Below are positions 7,024-23,797 of a DNA stretch of 64,000 nt, one piece after another. The stretch spans positions 62,001 through 126,000 of the forward strand of contig NZ_JAAGOB010000001.1 of the NCBI RefSeq assembly GCF_010550695.1, read 5' to 3'. Source of the stretch: Phytoactinopolyspora alkaliphila (GTDB taxonomy: Bacteria; Actinomycetota; Actinomycetes; Jiangellales; Jiangellaceae). Made by a program: the position numbers and the translations under genes. The notes below the pieces were generated by a model. The model was given only the letters and a program-made list of their open reading frames with translations. It did no database searches and was not told the DNA's origin. Position 1 is the first letter of the stretch, and each line of letters begins with the position of its first letter.

Positions 7024-7992
7024 CTACGATGTGCGGGCGTTGACCGTGCGGAGCCGGCGTTCCAGCGGGCGCAGCCTGGTCTGGCCGACCGGCGCGAGGC
7101 GCGACGATCCGGCTCCGTCAGCGCGGAATACGCTGGGCGGCACGCCGTAGGCGGCGCGGAAACGCCGGGAGAAGTGGTAGGCGTCGGTGAAGCCGCACTG
7201 AGCAGCGATCGCCGCCATGGTGAGGTTGCTCATCCAGAGCAGCGGCTCGGCGCGGGCCAGCCGGATCAGTTCCAGCGCGGCCACCGGGCCGACGCCGAAC
7301 TCCCGCCGGAACAGCCGGGACAACGAGCTCGGCGAGATCGACGCCGCGGTCGCCAGCTCGGTCAGCGGCACCGGCCGGGCCACTCCGTCTCGCCACCGGC
7401 CAGCGACATGCCTCACCATGGCGTCGAGTGGGCGGGGGAACGGCGGGTCGTCGTCGCCGGGAAGTGGACCGGCCACGAAGGTGACCACCAGCAGGGCGAG
7501 CACATCGCGAGCTCGCTCCTTCCATCCGTCAGGACGGGCGTCGCCGAGCCACAGCAGGTAGCGGCAGAGGGCCGCGATCGGGCCGTCGCGCTCATCTATC
7601 GGGTGGGTCAAAGGCCAGTGTTCGGGTGACCCGAGCGCCTGGGCGCCCGGGTCGGATACCAGGGCTCGCGGCCCGAGCACCGGGTCCTGGTGCTGTGCGG
7701 GTTGCACGACGTCCCCCAGGGTGAAATGGACATAGGCGTGCCGCGTCGGCCCGTCGGTGTCCCAGCGAAACGAATCCCGCATGCCGGGGCGCACCAGCAG
7801 CAGGCGCCCCGGCTCCAGCTGGACCGGTTCGGCCGCGCCGTCGTGCCACCACGAAGCCCGGCCCCGGAGGATCCAGACGAACTGAAAGCTCTTCGCCTCG
7901 CGGGGCCCGAACGTGGACCCGGGCGGGTAGTCCGCCACGGCCGGCCCCAGTCTGGGGACCAGCCCGACGCCCAGACCCCGGCCCGTTGTCAT
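7024..7992 (-). CDS. AraC-family transcriptional regulator
   Basis: 322 residues from the chosen ATG. The N-terminal part is a cupin-like sensor (FVWILRGRASWWHDGAAE, then LLLVRPGMRDSFRW), and the C-terminus has the double helix-turn-helix of AraC/XylS proteins (LTELATAASISPSSLSRLFR, then MAAIAAQCGFTDAYHFSRRF). Such proteins usually activate sugar-utilisation genes when a ligand binds the cupin. The frame is open further upstream into the PhyH gene, but those residues are low-complexity, and the ATG at 7992 sits directly before the recognisable domain. It follows the PhyH gene by 49 bases on the same strand. Likely targets are the PhyH and sialidase-like genes or the Tat/AGE pair; no operator is proven. 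Confidence 0.88.
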   Translation of the reverse strand: MTTGRGLGVGLVPRLGPAVADYPPGSTFGPREAKSFQFVWILRGRASWWHDGAAEPVQLEPGRLLLVRPGMRDSFRWDTDGPTRHAYVHFTLGDVVQPAQHQDPVLGPRALVSDPGAQALGSPEHWPLTHPIDERDGPIAALCRYLLWLGDARPDGWKERARDVLALLVVTFVAGPLPGDDDPPFPRPLDAMVRHVAGRWRDGVARPVPLTELATAASISPSSLSRLFRREFGVGPVAALELIRLARAEPLLWMSNLTMAAIAAQCGFTDAYHFSRRFRAAYGVPPSVFRADGAGSSRLAPVGQTRLRPLERRLRTVNARTS

Positions 7993-8041
7993 GGGGGATC
8001 CCGCCGTTGACGAGCGGATCCCCGATGCCCCCGGGGGAGCG

Positions 8042-8905
8042 TCATCTGTCGCAGCCCCCCGCACGGTCGGGGCGTATGTACGGCTGCCGGATCTGCTCGA
8101 TCCCCTTGTAGGCGTACGGGTCCTCGCCGGCCACCAGGACGACGTCGCGGAAGTCGGCCTGCGCCATCGGCTGACCTTCGGCCGGACGCCCCCACGGCAG
8201 CAGGGACGTCGCGCTCATGTAGTGGTTCACCAGCGCCCGGCGATACCCCCGGCCGCCGGTGTTCGGCAGCGACTTGTGGAGCAGGTACCCGTTGAACAGC
8301 AGGACAGAGCCCGCCGGGATCTCCACCGGGACGGCGTCGGCGTCGGTGTACGGAAAGTCGAAGGACTCCACGGTGCAGTCGTAGCGCGGGTCGTTGTGCT
8401 CCCGGTTCGGAAAGATGACGCCACGGCGGTGCGATCCAGGCAGGACCCACAGGCAGCCGTTCTCCACGGTCGCGTCGTCCAGTGCTATCCACGCCGCGGT
8501 CAGGGAGCGGTCCCGGGTGGGGATGAAGAACTCGTCCTGGTGCCAGGCCTGGCCGGGTTTACCCTCCGCTTTGATGAACAGCATCGACTGCATCGCCTTG
8601 ACGTCCGGGCCGATCACGTGGGTCAGCGCATCGACGACGACCGGGTGCCGCATCCCCTCGAGCATGAGCGCGGAGAGCTTGTGCGGGTAGTGGATGCACA
8701 GGTACCGGCGCATCACCTCGTCGTCGGAGAGCGACGCGCCGGCGTCGGAGCCGCCCTTGATCTCGCCGAGTTCACCTCGGCAGATGCGCAGCGTCTCGAC
8801 GCGCAGCTCGTCGACCTCGTGCGCGCTCAGTGCGCCGTCGAGGATGACGTAGCCGTCGCGGGCGAACTGGTCGGAAAGTGTCCGGGCGGACGTCTCTACG
8901 GTCAT
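8042..8905 (-). CDS. phytanoyl-CoA dioxygenase (PhyH) family, Fe(II)/2-oxoglutarate-dependent
   Basis: 287 residues. The metal-binding facial triad is visible as WHQDEF (His122, Asp124) and LLHKSLPN (His210), with the 2-oxoglutarate-binding Arg in YRRALVNH (Arg222 or 223). The fold should be a double-stranded beta-helix, and the protein is cytoplasmic. Bacterial PhyH proteins hydroxylate diverse small molecules (ectoine, fatty acyl groups, phosphonates, halogenated compounds); many remain uncharacterised. Position between the secreted glycosidase genes and the AraC-type regulator suggests a substrate from the same catabolic route, but this is inference. ATG start; a hairpin separates it from the upstream gene, so it may have its own promoter. 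Confidence 0.87.
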   Translation of the reverse strand: MTVETSARTLSDQFARDGYVILDGALSAHEVDELRVETLRICRGELGEIKGGSDAGASLSDDEVMRRYLCIHYPHKLSALMLEGMRHPVVVDALTHVIGPDVKAMQSMLFIKAEGKPGQAWHQDEFFIPTRDRSLTAAWIALDDATVENGCLWVLPGSHRRGVIFPNREHNDPRYDCTVESFDFPYTDADAVPVEIPAGSVLLFNGYLLHKSLPNTGGRGYRRALVNHYMSATSLLPWGRPAEGQPMAQADFRDVVLVAGEDPYAYKGIEQIRQPYIRPDRAGGCDR

Positions 8906-9006: not shown

Positions 9007-12000
9007 TCAGAAGCGGAGCCAGGTGTCGCTGAGGCCCTGTTGTTCGACGCCGGGCTTGGAGTAGTCGCAGACGCCGCCGGGGAAGATCGCCTCCAGGCGG
9101 TCCCACTGCTCGGCATCTAACTGCACCGCGTACTCCTCCGGGTCTGGTGCCTTCAACTGGCATTTGACCACGTCCGCGGCGACGCTCTCACCGGCGACCT
9201 CCCGGGGAAACGATGCTGTCGGGTACAGCTGCTCGCATTCACCGGCCGGGTCCCGGTCCAGCGTCTCCGCGATGAACACGGGGTTCGTGTCGCGGGTGTT
9301 GCACCCCTCCACGAGGTCCGCCGGCCGCGCCCGGACGATCTTGTCGATCGGTGCGTCACCGGAGGTGTCCGCCGCGATGGCGGTGAGCCAGTCGTCCATC
9401 TCGATGATGGCGTGCCGCAGCATCGGACTGTCCGTGCTGAAACCGCCATAGCGGATGTCTTCCAGCAGGCTGACGTAATTGGCGGAGGTGCCGTTCGCCT
9501 CCGCCATGCGCTCCTTCATCGAGAACGTGTGGTAGCGCAGGTGCAGCTCGCCGTTCGGGTTGTCGTCCCGGTACGCCCGGTAGTCGATGACCGGGATGCC
9601 GGCGAGCCCTCCGCCGCCGCTGGCCAGCCGGCCAGTCTGGTAGGCGATCCGGATCGCCTCCTGGTCTCCGGCCGTCCGCTCCGGCCGGATGTTCGCGTCG
9701 TGGTCGAACCCGCCCACGTGCTCGTTGAGGTCCAGGAACTGCTCGGGGCTGATCGTTCCGTCGTTCAGCGCTTGCAGCCCGTACTGGATCCCGACGTTGT
9801 CCAGCGGGCGCCGGGCGAACCCGGTGGCCGGATCCCGCCCGTACACGTTCACCGCGTGGTCGTAGACGCCGCAGCGCACACCGGTGGGGTTGGTGTCCGG
9901 GTGGTATCGCTGCGCTGCGGGGACGATGCCGCAGAACGAACGCGGGTCGATCCGGCGCGCTCCGCCCGAGACGGCGCCCGCGGTGGCGTACGTGGCGAAT
10001 CCGGTGGCGGCGCGCTGCTCCTCCTCGGTCCACTCGGTGTCCGTGCTGGCGAAGTACGTGTCGAGCAGCCAGGCGTCGGTGATCATGTTGACCGTGCTGA
10101 AACCGACGTCAGGGAACGACGAGCCGATGATGATGCCATCGAAGATCCCTGGATAGTTGTCGGTGGTCTGATACGCCTGGTAGGAGCCTCCGGACGAGCC
10201 GAAGCCGATGACGTGCTTCGCCGGGCCGTAGGTTTCGATGAAGCGCTCCTTCACCATCATCGCCGACTCCGCCGCCGTGAGATCCGAGCAGTTCGAGCCG
10301 AAGACGTTCAGCGACGACGACATCACGCCGTAGCCCTGGCCCAGCATGAATGCGTCGACGACTCCGCCGGTATTGCGGCCCTGCCGGTACCAGCCGTTGG
10401 TGCAGCCGCCCCCGAGGGTGAAGATCGCGGCGCCGTTCCAGGCTGCGGGCGGGCTGTCGAACGACGGCTCCGGCTCGGTCAAAGGATCATGCAGCACCGT
10501 GTGCTGGTAGATCGACCGGTTCACGGTGCCGGTTTCCATCCGGACGACGAACGGTGCGTCGTCGCCCGTCGACGTGGTGGTGGTCGCCATGTCGTCCGGG
10601 TACGACGACGCACCGTCCGGCCAGGGCGCGTAGGTGTCCCCGGTGGTCCGGTAGAAGTAGTCGACGCGGGTCTGGACCGAGCAGTTCTCGTCGAGTGGTG
10701 CGCCGAGGTTGCCGCCGATCACAGGCATGGTGAACGACGTGGTCTCGCAGGCGAACGGCTGCTGGTGCGGGCCGGAGAACACCGGCCCCTCAGTAGGGTG
10801 GTTGACCACCACCAGCTGTGAGCGCCGGCTCTCCCCGCCGGTCGCCGCCACCACGTTGTCTCCGGTGTTGAGGCCGGTCACCACGCCGGTCAGCGTGCGG
10901 GCATCCTCGTCGACGACGAAGTCAGCGGTGACGTCGAGATCATTGGCCTGCACCGCCACGTCGTCCAGGGCAATGTCCTCGCCGACGTCGATCCGGATCA
11001 GCGAGTCGCCGCCCGAGACCGTGTCCGGCCGCCCGGACAACGTGGTGAGCCTGAGCGACTCGTCGTCCTCACCGTCGTCGCCGGCGGGGTTCGTGGTCGC
11101 CGAGACGGGATCGGACGCCATGCTGCCGCGGTCGGGCCGGCCGGGCTGGGTGGCGGTGATGGCGTAGACGCGGTGTTCGTAGGCCGTGCCGGGGGAGAGG
11201 CCAGTGCTGGTGAAGGTCGTCTCGCCGGCGGGCGTCTCTCCGGCGAGCTCCCACGCGCCGGTTCCGGCTGGGCGTCGTTCGACGTGATAGCCGGTGGCAC
11301 CCTCCCTGGCGGTCCAGGTCACGTCGATGCTCGACGACGACGCGGCCGCGGCCTGGACGTCGTCGGGCGTGTCCGGCACCGGGTCCCGGGTGAGGGTGAT
11401 GCCGTCCGCGACGACGAAGCCGTCGGCGTCGTTGCTCAGCTCCACCGATCCGGAGCTGCCGGCCTCGAACCGGTAGGTGCCGAGATTCACCCACACGCCC
11501 GGGCGGTCCGCGTCGGCCAGACTGCGGGCCTGGCCGCGCTGGTCCACCCGGACGGTGGTGCTGCCGTCAGCGTGGTTGATCGTGTACGGCGCGTTGGACG
11601 CCCGGTTCGGATGCGAGACGTACCAGGCGAGCACCTGATACTCACCAGCCACGGGCACGTCGAGCCGGAATCGGGCCAGCCGGTCACCGGTGCCCGCGGG
11701 CGCGGAGCGGTAGCTGACGCCGTAGTACGGGTGCCCGGCCTGACCGGTGGCGCGGCTCCAGGTTCCCGACACCATCTGGAAGTCGCCGACCGACTCGTCG
11801 TCGACCACCACATCGCGGATCAGATCGTGGTCACCGCCGCCGGAGATCAGCGTCAAGTGGTCCACGCCGATCGTGGTGCCGCCCTGGTGGCCCTCGCCTA
11901 CCAGCGTGAACCGGATGCGGTGTCCGCCCTGGCGCAAGTGGACGGTGCCGTGCTGGTAGGTCTGGTAGGCCGCGTTCGCGGGCAGGGTCGGATCGACGAG

Positions 12001-14181
12001 CCCGTCTGGCAGGTCGGTGCCGTCGATGCTGACCTGGACCTTGCCGCGGTTCCAGTGCCGGTGGTAGCGCACGGCGATCTCATACTCGCCCGCGCCGTCG
12101 ACGGTGAACGGGATCTCGACATAGTCGCCCGGTGCCTGAGCATCGTACTGGAGGTACCGGCCGCCACGCGCGTTCTCATCTTCGACGACCTCGGTGCCGC
12201 CCGGCCGGTCAGGGTTCGAGCGGGTTCGCTCCAGCGGGAGATGGACGACGGCGTCGTCGGGGACGTTGCTCGCACCGTCGGTGACCAGCCCGGCGATCTC
12301 AGCGGGGGACAGTACCCGGTCGAACAGCAGCGTCTCGTCGATGCCGCCGGTCAGGGCGTTGGCGCCGTCGGGCCGTTGACCGATGTGGATGCCCTCGCGG
12401 GCATTGCTGGACACAGACCCGACCGGGCTGGCACCCGAGGCCACCGCCTCTCCGTCCAGGTACAGCGTCACAGCGTCGCGGTCCCGGGTGAGGGCCACGT
12501 GGTGCCATTCGCCGTCGGCGTAGTTCCCGGGGGCGGTCAATGCCCGTGTCCCCGCTCCGGTGTCCACCAGGGCGCGCAGCCGGTTGTCGCCGGGTTCCGC
12601 CCGGATCCACCACTGCGGGGTGCTGCTTCCCATCGCGTAGGCCCACATGATCGCCTGCGAGCTCTGCTCCTCGGTGCGGAACCACGCCGCGGTGGTGAAC
12701 TCGTCGCCGGCGCTTGCCACGGAACGGGTGAGCGGAATCTGCAGATGGTCGTCCGCACTGAGCTCGAGCGCCGAGCCGACCGCTCCCTTCGTCACCGTGG
12801 GGCTTCCGGTGACGGCGGCATGATTTCGGTGTGCGGAGATGTCCGGTGTGATCGTCGAGATCCGCGGCACTCTCGACCCAGGCCTGGTGCGGACGTCGGC
12901 GGTGGCGCCGAGTTCGACCGCCTGCTCGGCGACGCCGCCGCCGTTGGATCCGTCGTCACGGCCATCGGTAAGCCACGCGAGGTCGAACGTGGCTACCGCG
13001 ACCCGTTGCGGCGCGGAGAGGATCTCGCCGTCGCGGCCGTAGATGAGCACGATGGTTCCGTCGGCCAGCACGGCCATGTCGGAGTAGTACGAGGAGCCGG
13101 CGTTGATCATCTTCTCGTACCGGTAGGTGTAGCCGTCGTCGTAGCTCACCCCGATGGTGAGCGCCTCGCGGCGGGCCGAGTCCGGCCGGCTGTGCAGCAC
13201 CCGGCTCACCCCGTCCGCGCCGGTGAACTGCACGAAGCCCGCGTCCACCGCCGTGTACCGGCCCGTGGCCGGCTCCAGGACCGGATCCGACCAAGTGATC
13301 CCGCCGTCCGTACTGACCGCGCTGATCCGGTTGCGATGCCCGCCAGCGGCCGAGCGGCCGTTGACCACGACGGCGCCGTCGTCGCGCTGCCAGATCCGGC
13401 TCTCGTTGATCGGATAGTCGATGTCCACCGGGATCGGCTCACCGGCTTCCCAGGTGTCGCCGTGGTCATCACTGTAGATCAGCGACACCCCGTACAGACG
13501 TTCCGGAACGGTATGGCCGATCACCTCACGGCGATGCAACACCTGCAGTGCCAGCCGCCCGTCGTCCAGCTGGATGCCGTGCCCCGGCCCGGGACCGTGC
13601 AGCGTCCAGCCGTAGTCGTTGTCCTCGAACAGCTCCGGCATCTCGACCGGGTCGGTCCAGGTCAGGCCATCGTCATCGCTGTGGACCATGAAGACTTCCT
13701 GGCGATCACCGGAGCAGGTGGTGTTGCCCTGGTCGCGCAGCGACATCCCGAAGAAGACGAAGATGTCGCCGGTCTCCTGGTCGACCACCGGTGACGGGTT
13801 GCCCCACGACTGGCCTTCTTCCGCCGGCACCACTACCTGGGACGGCTCCCAGCTGGCGCCGGCGTCGGTGCTGCGCCGGAGGAGCAGTTCCCGGGGGCCG
13901 GCGTCGCACGTCTCGTGCCGTCCCTCCGTGAAGGCCAGGATGGTGTCCTGCGGAGTCACCGCCAGCCCGTGCACGTGGTAGTTCTCCAGCGGGTCCGTCT
14001 CGGAATCCCACAGGATCGTCTCATCGTAGAAGCCGTGCTCGGCGTCGGCCGCCTGGGGGAGATTCGCAGCGGGGAGGGTCGCCGACGATGGTGCGGCGAC
14101 CAGGGCGCCGGCGGCGAGCGTGCCGGCCGAGAGCAGGACCGCGGCAGCTTTTCGCCGCGCGGTCAACCAGCGGTTGGTCAT
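9007..14181 (-). CDS. secreted sialidase-like (Asp-box) multidomain protein with C-terminal serine-hydrolase-like domain
   Basis: 1,724 residues from the ATG preceded by GAAAGGGG. Order: Sec signal peptide (1-34); six-bladed Asp-box sialidase-like domain (about 48-410; Asp boxes such as STDAGASW, SDDDGLTW and SDDHGDTW); LamG-type domain (about 450-650); CBM-like beta-sandwich (about 665-785); golvesin/xanthan-lyase-type C domain (about 786-932); FN3 (about 937-1030); and a C-terminal alpha/beta-hydrolase-like part (about 1045-1724; resembles DUF6351) with the elbow GFGSSGGS, Ser1330. GH33 catalytic positions seen are Asp93, Glu260, Arg276, Arg338 and Tyr365/366, but the first Arg of the triad (the RIP motif) is replaced by His69 (NYHVHG). 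It is paralogous to the next gene, which lacks the hydrolase part. Substrate undetermined. Confidence 0.85.
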   Translation of the reverse strand: MTNRWLTARRKAAAVLLSAGTLAAGALVAAPSSATLPAANLPQAADAEHGFYDETILWDSETDPLENYHVHGLAVTPQDTILAFTEGRHETCDAGPRELLLRRSTDAGASWEPSQVVVPAEEGQSWGNPSPVVDQETGDIFVFFGMSLRDQGNTTCSGDRQEVFMVHSDDDGLTWTDPVEMPELFEDNDYGWTLHGPGPGHGIQLDDGRLALQVLHRREVIGHTVPERLYGVSLIYSDDHGDTWEAGEPIPVDIDYPINESRIWQRDDGAVVVNGRSAAGGHRNRISAVSTDGGITWSDPVLEPATGRYTAVDAGFVQFTGADGVSRVLHSRPDSARREALTIGVSYDDGYTYRYEKMINAGSSYYSDMAVLADGTIVLIYGRDGEILSAPQRVAVATFDLAWLTDGRDDGSNGGGVAEQAVELGATADVRTRPGSRVPRISTITPDISAHRNHAAVTGSPTVTKGAVGSALELSADDHLQIPLTRSVASAGDEFTTAAWFRTEEQSSQAIMWAYAMGSSTPQWWIRAEPGDNRLRALVDTGAGTRALTAPGNYADGEWHHVALTRDRDAVTLYLDGEAVASGASPVGSVSSNAREGIHIGQRPDGANALTGGIDETLLFDRVLSPAEIAGLVTDGASNVPDDAVVHLPLERTRSNPDRPGGTEVVEDENARGGRYLQYDAQAPGDYVEIPFTVDGAGEYEIAVRYHRHWNRGKVQVSIDGTDLPDGLVDPTLPANAAYQTYQHGTVHLRQGGHRIRFTLVGEGHQGGTTIGVDHLTLISGGGDHDLIRDVVVDDESVGDFQMVSGTWSRATGQAGHPYYGVSYRSAPAGTGDRLARFRLDVPVAGEYQVLAWYVSHPNRASNAPYTINHADGSTTVRVDQRGQARSLADADRPGVWVNLGTYRFEAGSSGSVELSNDADGFVVADGITLTRDPVPDTPDDVQAAAASSSSIDVTWTAREGATGYHVERRPAGTGAWELAGETPAGETTFTSTGLSPGTAYEHRVYAITATQPGRPDRGSMASDPVSATTNPAGDDGEDDESLRLTTLSGRPDTVSGGDSLIRIDVGEDIALDDVAVQANDLDVTADFVVDEDARTLTGVVTGLNTGDNVVAATGGESRRSQLVVVNHPTEGPVFSGPHQQPFACETTSFTMPVIGGNLGAPLDENCSVQTRVDYFYRTTGDTYAPWPDGASSYPDDMATTTTSTGDDAPFVVRMETGTVNRSIYQHTVLHDPLTEPEPSFDSPPAAWNGAAIFTLGGGCTNGWYRQGRNTGGVVDAFMLGQGYGVMSSSLNVFGSNCSDLTAAESAMMVKERFIETYGPAKHVIGFGSSGGSYQAYQTTDNYPGIFDGIIIGSSFPDVGFSTVNMITDAWLLDTYFASTDTEWTEEEQRAATGFATYATAGAVSGGARRIDPRSFCGIVPAAQRYHPDTNPTGVRCGVYDHAVNVYGRDPATGFARRPLDNVGIQYGLQALNDGTISPEQFLDLNEHVGGFDHDANIRPERTAGDQEAIRIAYQTGRLASGGGGLAGIPVIDYRAYRDDNPNGELHLRYHTFSMKERMAEANGTSANYVSLLEDIRYGGFSTDSPMLRHAIIEMDDWLTAIAADTSGDAPIDKIVRARPADLVEGCNTRDTNPVFIAETLDRDPAGECEQLYPTASFPREVAGESVAADVVKCQLKAPDPEEYAVQLDAEQWDRLEAIFPGGVCDYSKPGVEQQGLSDTWLRF

Positions 14182-14214: not shown

Positions 14215-17200
14215 TCAGGTGGTTGTTGCCTGGACGGGATCGGTGGGCAGGCTGCCCCGGGCCGGGCGGCCCGGGTGGGTGTCGACGACGGCGTAGACGC
14301 GGTGTTCGTAGGCCGTGCCGGGGGAGAGGCCGGTGCTGGTGAGGGTGGTCTGGTCGCCGGGCGTTTCGCCGGCGAACTCCCACGCGCCGGTTCCGGCTGG
14401 GCGTCGTTCGACGTGATAGCCGGTGGCACCCTCACTGGCGATCCAGGTCACGTCGATGCTTGACGACGACGCGGCGGTGGCCTGGACGTCGTCGGGGGTG
14501 TCCGGCACGGGGTCGCGGGTCAGGGTGATGGCGTCGGCGATGACGAAGCCGTCGGCGTCGTTGCCGAGTTCCACCGATCCGGAGCTGCCGGCCTCGAACC
14601 GGTGGGTGCCGAGGTTCACCCAGACGCCGGGGCGGTCCGGGTCGGTGAGGCTGCGGGCTTGTCCGCGTTGGTCGACGCGGACCGTGGTCTCGCCGTCGGC
14701 GTGGTTGATCGTGTACGGCGCGTTTGACGCCCGGTTCGGATGTGAGACGTACCAGGCGAGCACCTGGTAGTCGTCCGTCACGGGCACGTCCGGCCTCCAC
14801 CGGACGGCACGGTCCCCCGTCCCGGTGGAAGCGGACCGGTAGCTCACGCCGTAGTACGGATGGCCCGCCTGGCCGGTGGCCCGGCCCCAGGTCCCCGACA
14901 TCTCGAAGGCGCCCACCGAGTCGTCGTCGACCACCGCGTCGCGGACCAGGTCGTGGTCGCTGCCGCCGGAGATCAAGGTCAGGTGGTCGGGCGTGATCGC
15001 GGTGCCGCCGAGCCGGCCTTCGTCCACCAGCGTGAATCGGATCCGGTGCAGTCCCTTGTCCAGTGAGACGGTGCCGAGCTGGTAGGTCTCGTACGCCTCG
15101 TTCGCGGCCAGCGACGGGTCGATCAGGCCTTCCGGCAGGTCGGCGCCGTCGATGCTGACCTGGATCTGCCCGCGGTCCCAGAAACGGTGGTAGCGGACGG
15201 CCACCTCGAAGTCACCCGAGTCCCGGGGGAGCCGGAAAGGCACGTCGATGTAGTCGCCAGGGGCGGCGGCCTCGTAGTGCAGTGCGCGTCCGCCGCGGGC
15301 GTTGGCGTCGTCGACGACACGTGGCCGCTCCGGAAGGACCGGCTGCGGCCGGGTTTCCTCCAGCGGCAGGCGCACCACCGCACCACCGGGAGGAGTCGCG
15401 CCGGAGCCTGCGTCCGCGAGCGCAGCGATCTCACTGGCCGGCAGCGCGGTGTCGTACAGGTAGACCTCGTCGACGGCGCCGGTGAACGGATTGGCTCCGT
15501 CCGGCCGCTGCCCGATGTGGATGCCGAGCCGGGCGCCGGCCGACGCCGAGCCGAACAGGTTCTCGGCCTCGGCCGCCAGTTCGCCGTCGACGTAGAGCGC
15601 CATCGCGTCGTCGGAGCGGGTCAGCGCCACGTGGTGCCACTCGCCGTCGGCGACGTCGCCCGGGGCCACCAGAGAACGCGTCGCGGCGCCGGAGTCGAGC
15701 AGGGCGCGAATGCGGTTGTCGCCGGGTTCCGCGCGGATCCACCACTGGGGCGTGCTGGAACCCATGCCGTACGCCCACATGATCGTCTGTGAGGTCTGCT
15801 GCTCGGTGCGGAACCAGGCGGCGGCGGTGAATGTCTCGCCGGCCCCCGTGATCGAGTCGGACCGCGGAAGTTCGAGATGATCGCCCGGGCCGAACTCCAG
15901 CGCCGGACCGACCGCCCCGTCGACCGCGTCGGGAGAACCGGCCACGATGGCGTGGTTGGCGTGACCCGACGCGTCTGGCGTGACCGTGCTGAACACCGGC
16001 TTCCCGGTCTTGGTCCCCGTGCGCACCCCGGCCGTGCTAGCCAGCTCGACCTCATGCTCGGTCAGGCCCGGGCCGCCCGAGCCGGTGTCCCGGCCGTCGG
16101 TGAGCCACGCGACGTCGAACCGCGCCAGGGCCACTCGACCGGGAAAGGCGAGAACGTCCCCGTCGCGGCCGTAGAGCGCGAGGATCGTGCCGTCGGACAG
16201 CACCGCGAGGTCCGAATAGTAGGACGGCCCTGGGTGCAGGGTCTTCTCGTACCGGTAGGTGTAGCCGTCGTCGTAGCTCACTGCGACGGTGAGGTTCTCC
16301 CGACGGGCGGAGTCGGGCCGGCTGTGCAGGGTGCGGCCGACGCCGTCGGGTCCCTCATACCGCAGGACACTGGAGTCGACGGCCGTGTAGCGGCCGGTGG
16401 CCGGCTCGAGGACCGGGTCCGACCAGGTGAGGCCACCGTCGGTACTCACCGCGCTGATCCGGTGCCGGTGCCCGCCCGCGGCGGCGCGCCCGTTCACCAC
16501 GACGGCGCCGTCGGCGCGCTGCCAGATCCGGCTCTCGTTGATCGGGTAGTCCGGTGAGACGGGGACCCGCCCGCCGCGCTGCCAGGTTTCGCCGTGGTCG
16601 TCGCTGTAGAGGGTGTCGATGCCGTACCGGCGCTCCGACGCGGGCAGGTTCACCGACCGCCGGTGCAGGATCGGCAGGATCAGCCGTCCGCTGTCGAGCT
16701 GGATGCCGTGCCCGGGCCCGGGGCCGTTCAGGATCCAGCCGAAGGGATTGTCGGCGAACAGATGGCCGAAGCCGACCGGGTCGCTCCAGCTCGCGCCCGA
16801 GTCGTCGCTCCTGATCAGGTTGACGTCGGCGCTGGTGGGGCCCTGGTAGAACAAGAAGGCGGTGCCCGTCTCGCTGTCGACCAGCGCGGTCGGGTTGCCC
16901 CAGGTCTCTCCGCCGGTCGGGACGAGGACCTCGGTGGGCTCCCACGTGTCGCCGCCATCGGTGCTGCGGCGCATCAGGATGTCCTTCGGGCCGCCGTCGG
17001 ACAACGCGTAACGGCCCTCCGTGAAGGCGAGGACCGTGTCGTCTGGCGTCACGGCCAAGGCGTGCACGTGGAAGTTCTCGTGCGAGTCGCTCTCGGAGTC
17101 CCACAGCGTGGTTTCGTGGAAGTAGCCGGACTCGCTCGTGCGTGGCGCTTGCGTGCGGGGTGCCGGTGTGCCGCGTGCGGCTGGGTCTGCCGCGCCCGCG

Positions 17201-17283
17201 GTGAGGGCTCCCGCGGTGAGGGCTCCCGTGACGAGGGCTCCCGCGGTGAGGATTCCGGCGATGGCGGTGAGGCGGTGCAGCAT
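14215..17283 (-). CDS. secreted sialidase-like (Asp-box) protein with LamG, CBM-like, golvesin-like and FN3 domains
   Basis: 1,022 residues with a Sec signal peptide built partly of repeated AGALT units (about 1-31). An Asp-box beta-propeller follows (about 55-400; STDGGDTW, SDDSGASW, SDDHGETW, STDGGLTW), then LamG, CBM-like, golvesin-like and FN3 modules ending at the stop. GH33-like residues are Asp96, Glu250, Arg266, Arg328 and Tyr355/356. As in its neighbour, the RIP Arg position is His (His72 in NFHVHA). It should act outside the cell as an exo-glycosidase; the accessory modules suggest binding to a polymer. ATG start after AGAGG. The gene lies 33 bases upstream of its longer paralogue, so the two are co-transcribed. 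Whether it is an authentic sialidase is doubtful because of the His substitution. Confidence 0.85.
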   Translation of the reverse strand: MLHRLTAIAGILTAGALVTGALTAGALTAGAADPAARGTPAPRTQAPRTSESGYFHETTLWDSESDSHENFHVHALAVTPDDTVLAFTEGRYALSDGGPKDILMRRSTDGGDTWEPTEVLVPTGGETWGNPTALVDSETGTAFLFYQGPTSADVNLIRSDDSGASWSDPVGFGHLFADNPFGWILNGPGPGHGIQLDSGRLILPILHRRSVNLPASERRYGIDTLYSDDHGETWQRGGRVPVSPDYPINESRIWQRADGAVVVNGRAAAGGHRHRISAVSTDGGLTWSDPVLEPATGRYTAVDSSVLRYEGPDGVGRTLHSRPDSARRENLTVAVSYDDGYTYRYEKTLHPGPSYYSDLAVLSDGTILALYGRDGDVLAFPGRVALARFDVAWLTDGRDTGSGGPGLTEHEVELASTAGVRTGTKTGKPVFSTVTPDASGHANHAIVAGSPDAVDGAVGPALEFGPGDHLELPRSDSITGAGETFTAAAWFRTEQQTSQTIMWAYGMGSSTPQWWIRAEPGDNRIRALLDSGAATRSLVAPGDVADGEWHHVALTRSDDAMALYVDGELAAEAENLFGSASAGARLGIHIGQRPDGANPFTGAVDEVYLYDTALPASEIAALADAGSGATPPGGAVVRLPLEETRPQPVLPERPRVVDDANARGGRALHYEAAAPGDYIDVPFRLPRDSGDFEVAVRYHRFWDRGQIQVSIDGADLPEGLIDPSLAANEAYETYQLGTVSLDKGLHRIRFTLVDEGRLGGTAITPDHLTLISGGSDHDLVRDAVVDDDSVGAFEMSGTWGRATGQAGHPYYGVSYRSASTGTGDRAVRWRPDVPVTDDYQVLAWYVSHPNRASNAPYTINHADGETTVRVDQRGQARSLTDPDRPGVWVNLGTHRFEAGSSGSVELGNDADGFVIADAITLTRDPVPDTPDDVQATAASSSSIDVTWIASEGATGYHVERRPAGTGAWEFAGETPGDQTTLTSTGLSPGTAYEHRVYAVVDTHPGRPARGSLPTDPVQATTT
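17195..17254. repeat. four 15-base tandem units inside the signal-peptide coding region
   Basis: The unit CCCGCGGTGAGGGCT occurs exactly twice (17195-17209, 17210-17224), followed by two variants to 17254. It is in frame and encodes repeated AGALT-type pentapeptides in the hydrophobic core of the secretion signal. Slippage here would lengthen or shorten the signal by five residues at a time without a frameshift. Confidence 0.85.
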
Positions 17284-17390: not shown

Positions 17391-18365
17391 TCAGGCGGTG
17401 GCCGAGAGGAGGTGTTCGGCGAGAGGTTCGAGGTAGGCGCGCAGCTCGCGCCGTTCGTCATCGGTGCAGGGCAGGAGCGGCGGCGCGACGTGGACGGGAC
17501 ACAGGCCCTGCCACGACAGGATCTCCTTGACGGTGGGTACGCCCGGTCGGATCCGGTGGACGCCGCAGAGCTGGTCGACGATGGCCTGCCAATGCTCGGC
17601 GCGGGATGCGTGGTGCGCCGAGTCCTCGCCGGCTGGGCGTGCGGCAGCGGGTTCCGGCGGGCGTTCAGCGCACCAGGCCCGGTAAAGCTCGACGGCGGGT
17701 GCCGGTGCGATGTTCGCGATCCCGGGGACGATCCCATCGGCGCCGGCTCGAAGGCCGGCCACCAGGGCTCCCTCGGCGCCCTGCCCGACGCCGAACCCGG
17801 GCCGCCGCTCCCGGGCCGTGTCCACCATCGTCCGGAGCACACGGAGATCACCGGAGCTGTCCTTGACCCCGATTACGTGCTCCATGTCCAGCAGGGCGTC
17901 GAACACCGCGTCGGTCAGGGGGTTGCTGTATTTGGGGGCGTTGTACGCGACGACGGGCACGCCGAGTCCGGCACAGGCGGCGTAGTGGGCGATGATCTCG
18001 TCGTCCCGGTGGTGGAAGTAGATCGGCGGGCTCAGCACGAGCGCTTCGGGCCGGGCGGGCAAGACCGTTTCGGCGCGGGCGAGCACGTCGGCCGTCCCAG
18101 CGGCCGTGATGTTCACGAGCACCGGCCGGTCACCCCCCAGCTGCCTCCAGGTGGCGACAGCGCCGGCCGTGAAATCTCGCAATACCGACGTGGGCAGCAG
18201 CGGTCCCTCGCCGTTGCTGCCCAGGAGCATCAGCGCATCCGCGCCGGCGGAGTGCACCGCCGCCAGCAGTGCCGTTGCGGCGTCGGCGCTGGGCCGGCCG
18301 GGAGCGTCCATTGGGGTCACGAGCGGCACGGTCACGCCGCTGAGCATCTCTCGCCCGGTGCTCAT
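17391..18365 (-). CDS. dihydrodipicolinate synthase/N-acetylneuraminate lyase-family aldolase
   Basis: 324 residues, a TIM-barrel class I aldolase. Family residues visible are GSNGEG (substrate carboxylate loop), the catalytic Tyr in AYNAPKY and the Schiff-base Lys in IGVKDSSGD. Members cleave or form 2-keto-3-deoxy acids: sialic acid to ManNAc plus pyruvate, 2-keto-3-deoxygluconate, or other ketoacids. The GxNGE motif (Asn rather than Ser/Thr) does not settle which. Inside this island, with an AGE epimerase and sialidase-like proteins, a NanA-like or keto-deoxy-sugar aldolase role is plausible. The ATG at 18365 overlaps the stop of the preceding FAD-protein gene (ATGA); a longer reading starting inside that gene is less likely. 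Confidence 0.87.
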   Translation of the reverse strand: MSTGREMLSGVTVPLVTPMDAPGRPSADAATALLAAVHSAGADALMLLGSNGEGPLLPTSVLRDFTAGAVATWRQLGGDRPVLVNITAAGTADVLARAETVLPARPEALVLSPPIYFHHRDDEIIAHYAACAGLGVPVVAYNAPKYSNPLTDAVFDALLDMEHVIGVKDSSGDLRVLRTMVDTARERRPGFGVGQGAEGALVAGLRAGADGIVPGIANIAPAPAVELYRAWCAERPPEPAAARPAGEDSAHHASRAEHWQAIVDQLCGVHRIRPGVPTVKEILSWQGLCPVHVAPPLLPCTDDERRELRAYLEPLAEHLLSATA

Positions 18366-19978
18366 CAGTATCCTTTCACTTCTGGCCATGCCAGCTCGAA
18401 GCCGTCGCGGACAAGCTCGTCCTGGAAGCGCGTCAGCTTCTGTTCGTCGGCGCGAACCTGCTCCGGCGCCAGCTCGTTCTCCAAGCAGTGCGATGCGAGC
18501 GCGCCGGCGGCCTCACCGATGTTCCATTCGACCGGGTGGAGGCGGTAACAGCCGTTGGTGATGTGCGTCGTGCCGATGTTCTTCCCGGCCGGCAGGAGAT
18601 TTCGCAGCCGGACCGGCAGCAGTGCGCCGAGGGGGATCTGGAACGGGCTGTTCGCCACGTCGATGTAGTTGTCACCACCGGTGGACGGGTGCAGGTCGAT
18701 GCGGTACATCCCGATACCGACGGTGTCCGGGTAGGCGAGCGCACCCCGGTCGCCCCGTACGGCCAGCGACAGGTCCTGCTCGACGACGGTGTACTGGGCC
18801 TTGATGCGCCGCGACTCGCGAATGTACGGCGCCTTGGCGAGGCCGTCGCGGGTTCCCATGACGTCCGGCCGGAGCTGCAGCCCCGGCCAACCGGTGCCTC
18901 CGTCCGGGCGTGGCGCCTCCGTCTGCAGCCAGTACAGCATGCTCAGGGCCAGCTGGCGCCCGCCCTCCAGATGCTCGCGTCGCTCGGACTCGGAGACCCC
19001 GATGATCGGCCCTGGCAAGTAGTCGATCATCGGCCAGTTCACGACTGTCACGTCACTGGCGGCGAAGCCTGGCTCGAACATGTCCCGGGCGACGATCCGC
19101 CGGAACAGCCACAGGTCCCGGTCGCCTGGGTCCTGGCTCTGATCGGCCACCACCGGGCCGGAATGGGCGTGCGGCACGAAGGTGCGCGTGAACGGCTCGA
19201 GTGTGCGGGGGTCCGGTGCGGTGAGGCTGAGCAGCCGGTCCGGCCAGAACGGTGGACGGTAGCTTTGCCAGAACCCGTACTGCTCCGGCTTGTCGATGGT
19301 GTGATCCTCACCGTCGCGGTGCTCCACGGCGAAAACCCAGGAGAAAGCCTGCATGTTCGCCGGCTGCGCGATCTCCGGCGCGCTCGGTTCTCCGGTGTCG
19401 TGCCGGGACTCGAATCCGGTGACGTGCTCGGCGCCGGCCAGCGGAAGCAGGTCGCCCTCCTCGGTGGCGTCCAGGACGTAGGAGGCTCGCACGACGCGAA
19501 CGATGTCCTCGGGCCCTTGCAGCCGCACCGCCGACACCGTGTCCGCGTCGACGTCGACGTCGACCGGGCGGTGCTCGAGGAGGATGCGCAGGCGCCCGGC
19601 GGAGACGTACGGCGCCACCATGCTCTCGATCACGGACGCGGCCACCCGCGGCTCATGGCAGAGCCGGCTGACCCGGCCTTGCCCGGGGTTGAGTTCCGGA
19701 TCGGCGCGGGCAGCGGGGGAGAGGGGATACCAGGTGCGGTAGTACTCCCGCACGGCGTCGCGGAACCTGCGGTAGGAACGGGTGCAGCCGAACCGCTCGA
19801 TCCAGGGATGCTCGTCCGGCGGGACCCCCTGACTTGTCAGCTGGCCGCCCAGCCAGTCCGTCTCTTCCGACATGACGACAGTGCGCCCCCGGCGCAACGC
19901 GGCCAGGGCGGCTGCCACACCGCCGACGCCGCCGCCCACGATCAGGACGTCGGCCGGGATCAGCTCTTCACTGCTCAC
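18365..19978 (-). CDS. FAD-dependent oxidoreductase (FAD_oxidored family)
   Basis: 537 residues from a GTG at 19978. The N-terminus is a dinucleotide-binding fold, ADVLIVGGGVGGVAAALAAL, followed by DWLGGQLTSQGV, characteristic of the FAD-dependent oxidoreductase family (PF12831 type) found beside carbohydrate-active enzymes. A later motif, DATEEGDLLPLAGAEHV, is also typical. Cytoplasmic. It probably oxidises or reduces an imported sugar or a derivative, but no substrate can be read from sequence. The start overlaps the end of the glycoside hydrolase gene by 11 bases, and its stop overlaps the aldolase start, so it is part of one operon. Confidence 0.85.
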   Translation of the reverse strand: MSSEELIPADVLIVGGGVGGVAAALAALRRGRTVVMSEETDWLGGQLTSQGVPPDEHPWIERFGCTRSYRRFRDAVREYYRTWYPLSPAARADPELNPGQGRVSRLCHEPRVAASVIESMVAPYVSAGRLRILLEHRPVDVDVDADTVSAVRLQGPEDIVRVVRASYVLDATEEGDLLPLAGAEHVTGFESRHDTGEPSAPEIAQPANMQAFSWVFAVEHRDGEDHTIDKPEQYGFWQSYRPPFWPDRLLSLTAPDPRTLEPFTRTFVPHAHSGPVVADQSQDPGDRDLWLFRRIVARDMFEPGFAASDVTVVNWPMIDYLPGPIIGVSESERREHLEGGRQLALSMLYWLQTEAPRPDGGTGWPGLQLRPDVMGTRDGLAKAPYIRESRRIKAQYTVVEQDLSLAVRGDRGALAYPDTVGIGMYRIDLHPSTGGDNYIDVANSPFQIPLGALLPVRLRNLLPAGKNIGTTHITNGCYRLHPVEWNIGEAAGALASHCLENELAPEQVRADEQKLTRFQDELVRDGFELAWPEVKGY

Positions 19979-22232
19979 TGCTGGTACTTCTCCTTCGTTC
20001 TTCTCCCTTTGCAATGCGCACACCGGCGCACCGATGCGTATCTGTGTGCATTGCAAAGGGGGTGGACCCTGGTCGGCCCGACGACACGTGAAACGCGACG
20101 GGCACGTCGGGTGCCTGCACGGGGATGGGGACGAGCTGACCCGGCTGGACAGGGTAAGTGCTGGGCACGCCGTCGATGTGTAGCTCGACGGTGTCCTCTG
20201 CTCCGGGTGGTGGCGCGATGAAGATCCGCGCATCGGCCTCGCGGGCGGTGGCGATGCCGCGCACTGTGTGGCGACCCCTGTGGTACCCGGAGATCACCAC
20301 GTGCGCGTCCACGTCGAGAAGTGGTGCTTTGTCCAACACGACGCTCAGCCGGTCCGCGGCGACGACGCTCAGCCGGCCGTCGCCGAGCGGGATGCCGGCC
20401 AGCTCGGCCGGCGCGCCGGGATGAGCGAACCGCCAGCCGTCCGGACGCGGGTCGGCGAGTTCCTGGAACGCCAGGTAGGCGAGGAGAGATCCCCAGGACA
20501 TAAGCCCGTCTGAGCGGGCCTCCAGAGCGCGGACGTCCTCGCCGGGCCGGACCGGGTAGTTCTCCCGGACGTGGCTGTGCCGGTCCCACTCGTCGAGATA
20601 CAGACGCAGAAGCTTGCCGGAGATCTCCCTGGCCTCGTCGTCGTACCCATAGCGCCGCAGGCCCTCGACGGCGAGGTACACCATCGGCGCCCACACCCGG
20701 CCGCGCCAGTACCGGGTGCTGAAGCTGGGATCATTCCGGGCGGCACTGGGCAGCGGTGGGTCGCCGCCCAGCACGTCGGGAGCGAGTAACCGGCTCACCA
20801 GCGTCCGCGCCTGCTCGAGAGTGGGTGCGCCGGCCAGCAGGGGGTACAGCATCGTCGGCGAGATCTTCTCCGAGAAGGTACCCGTGGACCACCGGTTGCG
20901 GTACTCGTCGTGCTCGGCGTCCCAGAGCAGCCGGTGCAGCTCCTCCCGGGCACGCTCACCCTCGGTGCGCAGACCTGCGGCTTCCGCGCCGTGTCCGAGC
21001 CGGTCGGCCATGATCGCCAGGGCATCGGTGTCCGCGACGTGCAAGGCGTTCAGGCCGACGTCCGCGAGGTCCATGGTGTGTGTCGAGGCGTCGTAAGAGA
21101 CGTCGTCGTACATGGGGGAGTCGTCGAGACCCGACTCACGGCGGGTGCGGTCCATCGTGGCCGACTCCGGGTCGCCGGCCACGGGGTCCGAGCCCCACGC
21201 GAGCAGGCCGAACGGACCGCGGCGTGCCGCCGGCCACCACTCGTGCCAGCGCCGCAGCCCGTCGTAGCTGCTGGACAGCAGCGTCCGGTCACGGGTCTCG
21301 TCGCTCAGCCCGCTGCCGAGGTAGGCCTTGAGCACCGTGAGTGCGCCCACGGGCGGCTGGGACCGGTCGTCGGTGCGTCCCTTGTCGTCGGAGACGCGGT
21401 TCGGCAGCATCCCCTGCTCGTCGGCCTGGTCGAGGATCTGCCCGAAGATTCCGCGCGCGTACGACGAGTCGATCCAGCCCGCGACCAGGCCGGTGAAGAA
21501 CGTGTCCCACGTGTGCAACGCCCAGGTGCCGTAGAAGCCCTCCCGCTCGGCGCAGACGAAATCGCGTGAGGTCGGCGTGAGCACCCGTCCGAGGTCGGGC
21601 GCGTAAATGGTGTTCCAGGCGACCGCCCGGACATAGGCGTCGCCCGCGTCGCCGAGCCAGCCGCTGGTCTGTAGCCGTGCGTCCAGCGCACTGGCCCGGG
21701 CCGAGGCGACCCGGGCCGCGGTCGACGTCGAGTGCGCTGTGCCGGCGCCGGCCGGAGCCAGCCGCAGGGTCAGCGGTGACGCCTCGGCAGCCGGGATGAT
21801 CAGCGTTCGCGTACCTGCGTCGTCGTCGGCCAGAGAGGTGACCGACGCGGACACGTCCAGCCGCCACGCGTCGTCGAAATCCGCTGTCGTGGTGATGACG
21901 ACGACCAGGTCGGCGGGCTGATCACCCGCCACGGAGGCGACGACGTCGAGCACGTCGCCTCCGCCCGCGAACTGCATGTCCAGCGAGGTGTCCAGCGCGC
22001 TGACGACCGCATGGGCGTACCGACCGTCCACCGTGTGGTGACCGAGCCGGACCAGGCCGTGACGCCAGGTGAAGCCGTCGAACACGGTGCCGTCGGAGCC
22101 GGCGAGGCCGAATCTGAGCCGCAGGCCGGAGGGGAGGTGGGACATGCCGGTGTGGTACCGGACGTCCCAGGTGTTCCACCCCGCCGGCCGCGGCGACAGC
22201 GGCGGCCCGGCCGGCGGCTCGGCCAATGTCAC
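19968..22232 (-). CDS. GH63/MGH1-like (alpha/alpha)6 glycoside hydrolase
   Basis: 754 residues, GTG start overlapping the stop of the binding-protein gene. The N-terminal third is a beta-sandwich-like domain; residues about 180-640 form the (alpha/alpha)6 barrel with FYGTWALHTWDTFFTGLVAGW, YWRGRVWAPMVYLAVEGL and SDGLMSWGSLLAYLA, as in GH63 and mannosylglycerate-hydrolase-like enzymes acting on alpha-linked glucosides or mannosides. There is no signal peptide, so it should hydrolyse oligosaccharides brought in by the adjacent ABC importer. The last about 35 residues are Arg-rich, unlike the rest, and are encoded across an 18-bp inverted repeat, so the tail may be a recent addition. Specificity undetermined. 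Confidence 0.83.
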   Translation of the reverse strand: MTLAEPPAGPPLSPRPAGWNTWDVRYHTGMSHLPSGLRLRFGLAGSDGTVFDGFTWRHGLVRLGHHTVDGRYAHAVVSALDTSLDMQFAGGGDVLDVVASVAGDQPADLVVVITTTADFDDAWRLDVSASVTSLADDDAGTRTLIIPAAEASPLTLRLAPAGAGTAHSTSTAARVASARASALDARLQTSGWLGDAGDAYVRAVAWNTIYAPDLGRVLTPTSRDFVCAEREGFYGTWALHTWDTFFTGLVAGWIDSSYARGIFGQILDQADEQGMLPNRVSDDKGRTDDRSQPPVGALTVLKAYLGSGLSDETRDRTLLSSSYDGLRRWHEWWPAARRGPFGLLAWGSDPVAGDPESATMDRTRRESGLDDSPMYDDVSYDASTHTMDLADVGLNALHVADTDALAIMADRLGHGAEAAGLRTEGERAREELHRLLWDAEHDEYRNRWSTGTFSEKISPTMLYPLLAGAPTLEQARTLVSRLLAPDVLGGDPPLPSAARNDPSFSTRYWRGRVWAPMVYLAVEGLRRYGYDDEAREISGKLLRLYLDEWDRHSHVRENYPVRPGEDVRALEARSDGLMSWGSLLAYLAFQELADPRPDGWRFAHPGAPAELAGIPLGDGRLSVVAADRLSVVLDKAPLLDVDAHVVISGYHRGRHTVRGIATAREADARIFIAPPPGAEDTVELHIDGVPSTYPVQPGQLVPIPVQAPDVPVAFHVSSGRPGSTPFAMHTDTHRCAGVRIAKGEERRRSTSSEQ
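20005..20060. repeat. long inverted repeat (17 of 18 bases paired) at the 3' end of the glycoside hydrolase gene
   Basis: CCCTTTGCAATGCGCACA (20005-20022) pairs with TGTGTGCATTGCAAAGGG (20043-20060), one mismatch, with a 20-base spacer. It lies inside the coding sequence about 35 bases before the stop and upstream of the FAD-protein start. It could be a transcript-processing or stabilising hairpin, an operator, or the footprint of a small mobile repeat. Confidence 0.85.
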
Positions 22233-23797
22233 TGGCCCGCCTCGACGGACACGTCGGCGAATCCCGGAACCGACGACGGGTCGAGGTCGACCCCCGTGAC
22301 ACCGTCCTGCCAGGCGTAGACAACCTGCGGGAACATCGGGAACATGCCGACCGCGTCAGTCCAGATGATCTCGGTCGCCTGCGCGTAGAGGTCTTGCCGG
22401 GTGTCGGGGTCGGCGACGGAGTCGGCCTCGGCCAGCAGACTGTCGAGCTCCTCGTTGCAGTAACCGGTCCGCTCGGCGGCACACGGATAGAGCCGGCCGA
22501 CGTTCGTGGCCGCATCCAGAGACGGTACCGAGACCGACTGCAGGTTGATGTCCCATTCCAGGGCGAGCAGGTCCTCGATCCAGATTCCCGGCTCCTTCTC
22601 GACCGGCTCGACCTGGACTCCGATGTCACGCAGGTCCGACGTTACGGCCTGAGCGAACTGCCGGAACTCCTCGCCGCGCAGCTGCAGTTCGAACGTGGCG
22701 TCGAAATCGAAACCCGCGTCCTCCAGCGCGGCACGAGCAGCATCCGGGTCATAGGACATCTGCTCCTGCGGCGAGTATCCGAACACGGGAGGAGCGACGA
22801 TCGAGTCGGCCAGAGCACCGGTCTCCGGGTACAGCGCGGCGATGATCTCCTCGAAGTTCACCGCCTGCCAGAGAGCCCGGCGGACCTCGGCGTCGGCGAA
22901 CGCGTCCCGGCTGGAGTTGAACCACATGGTGAAGGTGGCGTTGCTGGGGACTGACTCGATGACGAGGCTGTCCTCAGAGCGCAGCGAGGGCACCTGGTCG
23001 TCGGGTACTCCCCAGGTGAGCTGGACCTCGCCGGTGCGCAGAGCGGTCATCCGAGCGGCCGTTTCAGGGATGAAACGCAGCTCCAGACGCTCGACGTTCG
23101 GACCGCCGCCCCAGTGGTTCGGATTGGGGACCAGAACCAGGGTCTCCTCCGGGGTGAAGCTCTCGACCTGGAACGGGCCCGAGCCGACCGGATCGGCGAA
23201 GAAGCCGTCCTCGCTCGCCCGCTCACCCGGGGTGATCCACAGCAGGGACAGCTTTCCGGCTAGAGCGGGATCGCCCGCCTCGGAGGTGAAGACGACCGTC
23301 GACTCGTCCCGCGCCTCGACCTCCACGCCACCGATGTTCCCGGCCGGAGGGCCTTCGAGTTCCTGGATCCGCTCGATCGAGCCGACGACGTCGTCGGCGG
23401 TCAGCGGCGTGCCGTCGGAGAACGTGACGCCGTCGCGCAGGGTGAAGACCCACTCGGTGGCATCCTCGGATACGGTCCACTCCTCGGCCAGTTCCGGGAC
23501 GATACCCTCGTCGCCGACGCTGACCAGCCGGTCGAAGATAGCCCGCCCCGCCAGGGCCGTGCCGAGGTCCGCGCCCATGTCACCGTGCGGGTCGAGCGTG
23601 GTGATGGGACGCTGGATGGCCACGGCCAGCTCGCCGCCGGCTTCGGGCTCCGCGTCCGGCTCGGTGGTGGAGTTGGTGTTGCCGTCGTCGCCGTTGGTGG
23701 GATCCTCGGCGTCGTCGCCGCTGCCTCCACAGGCGGTGAGGGCGAGTACCGCGACGCCGAGTAGAGCGGACAGACGGTACCTGCGATGGTGCGACAT
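22229..23797 (-). CDS. extracellular solute-binding lipoprotein, family 5 (peptide/oligosaccharide type)
   Basis: 522 residues. The lipobox LTAC places the lipidated Cys at residue 23; an acidic Asn/Thr/Glu-rich linker follows. The mature protein has the SBP_bac_5 pattern (LAVAIQRPITTLDPHGDMG, WVFTLRDGVTFSDGTPLTADDV, and RRALWQAVN). It captures the substrate outside the membrane for the DppBCDF-type importer encoded just upstream. ATG at 23797 chosen because GGAG sits six bases before it; a TTG 12 bases further upstream is a weaker start. A TAATACGTA element lies about 21 bases upstream, shared with the lacI promoter. The context of glycosidases argues for an oligosaccharide ligand rather than a peptide. 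Confidence 0.9.
   Translation of the reverse strand: MSHHRRYRLSALLGVAVLALTACGGSGDDAEDPTNGDDGNTNSTTEPDAEPEAGGELAVAIQRPITTLDPHGDMGADLGTALAGRAIFDRLVSVGDEGIVPELAEEWTVSEDATEWVFTLRDGVTFSDGTPLTADDVVGSIERIQELEGPPAGNIGGVEVEARDESTVVFTSEAGDPALAGKLSLLWITPGERASEDGFFADPVGSGPFQVESFTPEETLVLVPNPNHWGGGPNVERLELRFIPETAARMTALRTGEVQLTWGVPDDQVPSLRSEDSLVIESVPSNATFTMWFNSSRDAFADAEVRRALWQAVNFEEIIAALYPETGALADSIVAPPVFGYSPQEQMSYDPDAARAALEDAGFDFDATFELQLRGEEFRQFAQAVTSDLRDIGVQVEPVEKEPGIWIEDLLALEWDINLQSVSVPSLDAATNVGRLYPCAAERTGYCNEELDSLLAEADSVADPDTRQDLYAQATEIIWTDAVGMFPMFPQVVYAWQDGVTGVDLDPSSVPGFADVSVEAGQ

Follow-up and report, generated by a model that had tools for sequence, protein, structure and literature searches.

The window, a stretch of 64,000 nucleotides from Phytoactinopolyspora alkaliphila, encodes a protein in which a sialidase-like front half is joined to a C-terminal DUF6351 domain (PF19878). 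The DUF6351 domain is most likely an esterase, which would give a secreted protein that carries two enzymes for glycan degradation. We consider it fairly likely that the GH33-type glycosidase and the DUF6351 esterase act on an acylated glycan, from which a sugar acid would be released, imported and broken down. The invariant histidine of DUF6351 follows predicted strand β7, and the glycosidase half carries a histidine in place of the first arginine of the sialidase triad.

Domain layout of the fusion gene

The fusion gene, its domains and its neighboring paralogue are located as follows.

9007..14181, minus strand: fusion gene, 1,724 aa, encoding in order a secretion signal-like N terminus, BNR_2, LamG, Golvesin_C, fn3 and DUF6351
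13051..13941, minus strand: BNR_2 sialidase-like domain (Pfam, E=4.2e-28)
12292..12756, minus strand: Laminin_G_3 domain (Pfam)
11386..11811, minus strand: Golvesin_C domain (Pfam)
11143..11370, minus strand: fn3 domain (Pfam)
9037..11046, minus strand: DUF6351 domain, PF19878 (Pfam, E=2e-240, profile positions 2-654 of 655)
14215..17283, minus strand: sialidase-like paralogue without DUF6351 (Pfam)

The open reading frame (9007-14199, minus strand) comprises 1,730 open codons counted from a TTG. The ATG at 14181 is codon 7 of this frame, and a start at this position, which is preceded by a purine-rich, Shine-Dalgarno-like stretch identified by eye, yields 1,724 residues. Both the start codon and the signal peptide are by-eye calls; the protein is probably secreted. 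Residue numbers such as Ser1330 follow the ATG count, and the TTG count runs 6 higher.

A preliminary description of this DNA had set apart the last 680 or so residues as a distinct domain present on only one of two paralogues, and both points hold. These residues form a single Pfam domain, DUF6351 (E=2e-240), which Pfam labels a tannase-like family of unknown function and which spans residues 1046-1715 (1052-1721 in the TTG count) and scores 800 bits against a curated cut-off of 22.4, with nearly the whole profile covered. The paralogue (14215-17283, minus strand) shares BNR_2, LamG, Golvesin_C and fn3 with the fusion protein, at 66% identity across 1,028 columns, but lacks DUF6351 by Pfam. 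The score far above the cut-off and the recurrence of the same join in six other genomes indicate that the fusion is not a chance event. A read-through or frame artefact was considered for the window gene and rejected, because the join is in frame in those six genomes as well.

Predicted fold of DUF6351

The DUF6351 region is predicted to consist of two parts.

10792..11055, minus strand: N-terminal β-sandwich of the DUF6351 region (model residues 1-88), composed of strands with no helix of at least four residues
9157..10794, minus strand: α/β-hydrolase part (model residues 88-633), in which a mostly helical insert separates β6 from β7

The AlphaFold2 model of this region, which was built from 60 sequences, has a pLDDT of 92.6 and a pTM of 0.93; the hydrolase part modelled alone has a pLDDT of 88.9. 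The N-terminal β-sandwich may be Ig-like. In model numbering, Ser1330 is located at the turn that joins strand 281-287 to helix 289-300, and the mostly helical insert stands before strand 489-494. Foldseek ranks 1-28 for the whole region are occupied by feruloyl esterases and a related A. oryzae esterase, MHETase and tannin acyl hydrolase, and tannase-family enzymes again fill ranks 1-28 when the hydrolase part modelled alone is the query; the tannase matches have modest TM-scores (0.24-0.35 of the query) and rmsd values of 14-20. With VIA, Z scores of 14.8-16.6 were obtained to many α/β hydrolases, several of which equal or exceed the tannases. The longest alignment among the matches shown is to 3wmt (Z 15.3, rmsd 4.1, 330 residues for the whole region), and the hydrolase part alone aligns to the same structure with Z 14.8 and rmsd 4.2 over 328 residues. 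The predicted model, compared by Foldseek and VIA, thus displays the central-sheet core and the serine at a strand-helix elbow that define the α/β-hydrolase fold. These comparisons support DUF6351 as a serine-hydrolase domain, with a predicted α/β hydrolase behind a small β-sandwich. The serine-hydrolase-like domain proposed in the preliminary description is borne out by the family assignment, the predicted fold and the invariant Ser and His.

The tannase/feruloyl esterase family (PF07519; AoFaeB 3wmt, FoFaeC 6fat, MHETase and A. niger tannase 7k4o) shares its fold with the DUF6351 model and, by profile, its glycine-rich oxyanion loop and elbow region. When six PF07519 tannases are compared by hhalign (probability 95, E=2.7e-8), the alignment is confined to residues 203-312, the oxyanion-to-elbow half, suggesting that the resemblance to tannases at the profile level is limited to the front half of the hydrolase and that the back half has diverged. 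Tannases carry a lid before β7, and the DUF6351 model has one as well. DUF6351 differs in lacking the CS-D-HC motif of the tannase/feruloyl esterase family: the residue before Ser1330 is Ser, and neither an HC pair nor a conserved His follows β8. The motif is named in the available part of PMC7936011. PF07519 itself was not matched in the same genome at E<=0.001 and is not among the Pfam domains of the fusion protein. A single-sequence search of PDB sequences with DUF6351 returned no solved relative at E<=1, and a profile search of the same sequences gave weak matches at the elbow only (best E 0.56).

The nearest Foldseek folds, being feruloyl esterases, MHETase and tannase, would also fit an enzyme for aromatic esters (feruloyl, coumaroyl or galloyl) of plant material, in which case the fusion would merely keep two plant-debris enzymes together. 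Genes of plant-polysaccharide type stand beside DUF6351 elsewhere (GH2, GH3 and GH43 on a Caulobacter plasmid, GH5 in Kribbella), which is consistent with this reading. However, fold does not dictate substrate, and no aromatic-acid catabolism family was found among the window ORFs searched. We regard an aromatic ester as a doubtful substrate.

Candidate catalytic residues of DUF6351

Conservation was assessed with 76 DUF6351 domains, from the window and 75 of 80 related loci; the other five loci were excluded because of stops, a frame break or truncation. Together with two further sets (A1 and A4), these domains gave 101 non-redundant sequences with pairwise identities of 25-98%, the window's own included.

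10192..10194, minus strand: Ser1330 codon, nucleophile elbow GFGSSGG after β5; Ser in 101/101
9541..9543, minus strand: His1547 codon, after β7; His in 101/101, the sole fully invariant His
10108..10110, minus strand: Asp1358 codon, after β6, acid candidate; acidic in 101/101 (68 D, 33 E)
9565..9567, minus strand: Asp1539 codon, turn after β7, acid candidate; D/E in 97/101
9448..9450, minus strand: Tyr1578 codon, probable slot of the usual catalytic His after β8, as judged from spacing

The GFGSSGGS elbow with Ser1330, as described earlier, is present and its serine is encoded by TCC at 10192-10194. The position after β8 is variable: column 1578 contains 47 Y, 17 H, 10 gaps and 9 F, with a mixed remainder (n=101), and past residue 1551 (ATG count) no column of the 101 DUF6351 sequences is His in more than half. 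In the part of PMC7034887 available, in which 40 α/β-hydrolase families are compared, the catalytic His lies on the loop after β8 and the acid lies after β7 or at the end of β6. DUF6351 departs from this canonical triad, because its invariant His follows β7, and would break the rule as worded in that part of the paper. Judged by sequence and predicted secondary structure, DUF6351 seems to keep its catalytic His after β7. The preliminary description had held that a missing His or Asp of the triad would speak against a hydrolase. This objection applies to the slot after β8, which has no conserved His, and fails otherwise, because an invariant His after β7 and conserved acids are present.

Two residues are candidates for the catalytic acid. 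Asp1358 is strictly acidic and lies approximately two residues beyond the β6 position of the known group-B acids, as given in the available part of PMC7034887. Asp1539 falls on the tannase Asp when the motif is matched by eye, with no gaps, to the tannase alignment, but an acidic residue is absent at this position in 4 of the 101 sequences. Either may serve as the acid. Asp1533 is kept in 98/101 sequences; Glu1305 (in the helix before β5) and a single position close to the C terminus are acidic throughout. The Cys residues next to Ser1330 (position 1329) and ahead of Asp1358 (position 1354) co-vary, with both present in 62 sequences, neither in 38 and a single one in 1 (n=101); ten switches of each were counted by parsimony on a FastTree tree. 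This pairing supports the closeness of the elbow and the β6 loop. The window member shares the full-length match, the Ser, His1547 and the conserved cysteines of the DUF6351 family. It is one of the 38 among the 101 sequences that have no Cys pair around the elbow, and it differs from the family in being fused to a sialidase-like chain.

DUF6351 could also be a binding or structural domain rather than a working esterase, given that the usual triad His is missing and that no characterised DUF6351 member was found in the papers searched. Yet Ser1330 and His1547 are invariant in 101/101 sequences down to 25% pairwise identity, a degree of conservation that a dead domain would not need, and we regard this reading as very improbable. 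PF19878 is mentioned in none of the papers searched, and in a search for fusions of tannase, sialidase and a domain of unknown function, none of the 10 papers listed of 12 matched has a title on such a fusion. The single paper found to name DUF6351 reports it among the domains of candidate T6SS effectors.

The sialidase-like half

The closest solved relative of the BNR domain is the sialidase 1eur (E=1.7e-35), the Micromonospora viridifaciens enzyme, whose active-site residues are Arg68, Asp92, Glu260, Arg276, Arg342 and Tyr370. Five of these six are shared: Asp92, Glu260, Arg276, Arg342 and Tyr370 align to Asp93, Glu260, Arg276, Arg338 and Tyr366 of the fusion protein, so that the Tyr/Glu pair and the acid Asp of GH33 are present. 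The sixth differs between the two proteins.

13975..13977, minus strand: His69 codon, replacing the first triad arginine (Arg68 of 1eur) by alignment

The arginine triad is consequently incomplete, with Arg276 and Arg338 retained and His69 in the first position. His occupies this position in all 10 distinct proteins of this sialidase-like type examined, whereas the five BNR neighbors examined from the other DUF6351 clade retain Arg in that motif by eye. The glycosidase half of the preliminary description is therefore upheld as homology to GH33 (E=1.7e-35), with the first Arg replaced by His. The BNR half is probably a GH33-type β-propeller glycosidase whose acidic sugar substrate is not ordinary sialic acid.

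Sialidase-plus-esterase proteins are already known, and the window fusion is a variant with another esterase fold. In the part of PMC10298468 available, B. bifidum SiaBb1 is described as a sialidase/O-acetylesterase in which GH33 and SGNH esterase domains are combined in one extracellular protein. The window protein resembles SiaBb1 in joining a sialidase-type and an esterase domain. It differs in that the esterase of SiaBb1 belongs to another superfamily (SGNH), whereas DUF6351 is the sole esterase-type Pfam domain in the fusion, and in that its sialidase domain lacks the first Arg.

The operon around the fusion gene

The genes surrounding the fusion are all encoded on one strand.

27541..28668, minus strand: LacI-family regulator
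22229..27544, minus strand: SBP_bac_5 ABC importer (binding protein, two ATPases and two permeases)
19968..22232, minus strand: MGH1-like/GH63-like glycoside hydrolase
18365..20233, minus strand: FAD_oxidored protein, true start probably later than the ORF start
17391..18389, minus strand: DHDPS-family pyruvate-type aldolase
8042..8905, minus strand: PhyH dioxygenase, downstream
7024..8064, minus strand: AraC-family regulator, downstream

The order is LacI, SBP_bac_5 importer, MGH1-like, FAD, DHDPS-family aldolase, paralogue and fusion, followed by PhyH and AraC. The aldolase gene lies immediately upstream of the two sialidase-like genes. Its product scores 34 bits against the NanA profile (cut-off 281) and is not NanA; among solved structures it is closest to DHDPS/NAL-named and KDG-type aldolases. 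The operon contains neither NanA nor NanE, and NanE is encoded on another contig. The canonical nan cluster, in the available part of PMC8754123, is defined by clustered nanA, nanK and nanE, and the present operon departs from this definition in its aldolase and in the location of NanE. We read the operon as a sugar-acid uptake and breakdown cluster.

These genes bear on whether the fusion is a true sialidase with a sialate O-acetylesterase, in which, as in SiaBb1, removal of the O-acetyl group would let the sialidase cut sialic acid. The homology to GH33, in which Tyr, Glu, Asp and two Arg are retained, the SiaBb1 precedent (PMC10298468, available part) and the DHDPS-family aldolase gene directly upstream would agree with this function. 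Against it stand the first triad Arg replaced by His in 10/10 distinct proteins, with Arg kept in the five BNR neighbors examined from the other clade, the 34 bits of the aldolase against the NanA cut-off of 281, the location of NanE on another contig and the different fold of the SGNH esterase. We judge it improbable. The lost arginine and the operon together make ordinary sialic acid a less likely substrate, and a sugar acid of another kind remains our preferred reading.

The FAD ORF (18365-20233) overlaps the MGH1-like gene by 266 bases. Four strong paralogues of the FAD oxidoreductase are present in the same genome, and because the matches to three of them begin at residues 92-94, the real start is probably downstream. 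For the same reason of four paralogues, an FAD gene near DUF6351 elsewhere carries little weight as evidence. Two further regions of this genome were noted. The first (L183, G000:C31:101000-118000) is a second cluster with a BNR_2 gene and a DHDPS-family aldolase, together with FAD oxidoreductases, an SBP_bac_1 binding protein and GntR regulators; no DUF6351 match was found on that contig. In the second (L184, G000:C23:32000-45000), genes for DUF4127, GHL10 and an SBP_bac_1 ABC importer stand beside those for FAD oxidoreductase and NanE. The DUF6351 locus of J. aurantiaca (L046) contains DUF4127 as well.

Recurrence and history of the pairing

Close relatives of the window protein belong to Phytoactinopolyspora and Jiangella. 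BNR and DUF6351 are joined in a single open frame in 7 of 22 Jiangellaceae genomes (G000, G002, G004, G010, G014, G015 and G019), and the fusion gene is frame-broken in 2 more (G012 and G003). In Nonomuraea wenchangensis, BNR and DUF6351 are separate adjacent genes in a matching operon, with the order binding protein, two ATPases, MGH1-like, FAD, DHDPS, BNR and DUF6351. The binding-protein gene follows the ATPases in the window and precedes them in N. wenchangensis; the neighbor order is otherwise nearly the same. A long open frame at the N. wenchangensis locus (L075) was rejected as a fusion, being an out-of-frame shadow over two separate genes. Of the long frames upstream of DUF6351 at L076, L096, L108, L103, L093 and L067, the Pfam search covered those at L076 and L096, which had no match and were not counted as fusions.

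Other partners also occur in front of DUF6351. In two genomes (G011 and G020), the domain is fused to a different, secreted-looking N-terminal region of approximately 840 residues with no Pfam match (L119:6372-11111 and L120:6950-11533), which by eye resembles a β-propeller. An F5/8-type domain takes this position in J. aurantiaca and in two Nonomuraea.

In the DUF6351 tree, the fused domains do not form one clade. The window domain groups with the Jiangella fusions (98/99), and the fused domains of P. limicola and P. halotolerans group away from it, that of P. limicola with a stand-alone copy from its own genome; the N. wenchangensis domain is far off. In the tree of the front half, the P. 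limicola fusion groups weakly with the DUF6351-less paralogue of the window (84/69). These clashing positions suggest that BNR and DUF6351 were brought together, or their pairing reshuffled, on more than one occasion. The fused and stand-alone DUF6351 copies of P. limicola (L018/L034) and of P. halotolerans (L012/L033) share long identical stretches. Gene conversion between fused and stand-alone copies is likely, L018 and L034 being sisters in the tree.

DUF6351 is widespread by record titles, in actinobacteria, proteobacteria, acidobacteria and gemmatimonadetes. A BNR protein is joined to it or nearby in only 8 of the 80 related loci, and most have none (tblastn with the window's proteins; flanks of up to 10 kb, some shorter). 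In the second DUF6351 clade, the one that holds the N. wenchangensis gene, BNR-like genes lie near DUF6351 within the stretches covered at L129, L076, L078 and L081, with GH106 and a sulfatase additionally near that of L076, and a GH5 gene adjoins DUF6351 in Kribbella. DUF6351 also occurs without any glycosidase partner, for example in Variovorax. On a Variovorax plasmid (L131), two DUF6351 genes lie near a tripartite tricarboxylate transporter and acyl-CoA genes, a non-glycan context. On a Caulobacter plasmid (L132), the DUF6351 gene is flanked by GH2 and GH3 genes, and a TonB receptor and GH43 lie close by.

Discussion

In the proposed mechanism, the front half, a GH33-type β-propeller glycosidase with accessory domains, would cut an acidic sugar. 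The back half, the DUF6351 esterase with Ser1330 as nucleophile, His1547 as base and Asp1358 or Asp1539 helping, would probably deacylate either the same glycan or a decoration adjacent to the bond that the glycosidase cleaves. The ABC transporter would take up the freed sugar acid, and the aldolase and the FAD enzyme would degrade it. Acyl removal before or beside glycosidic cleavage is a plausible and the simplest reason for the join, for which the available part of PMC10298468 offers SiaBb1 as a precedent. The order suggested in the preliminary description, in which acyl groups must come off first, would fit this precedent and the sugar-related operon. A more specific and more tentative version, which we put forward as possible, is that DUF6351 is derived from tannases, with its His moved from the β8 to the β7 loop and its acid possibly at β6, and that in Jiangellaceae it was welded to a glycosidase with an altered carboxylate site that removes an acylated non-sialic sugar acid.

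The fused partner and the split-gene version make the role of DUF6351 beside a glycosidase testable, and the sialidase-like half, in which His replaces the first Arg, may point to a new sugar-acid specificity. The displaced His is the most interesting part of the finding: if it truly follows β7, DUF6351 would deviate from the rule drawn from 40 α/β-hydrolase families in the available part of PMC7034887.
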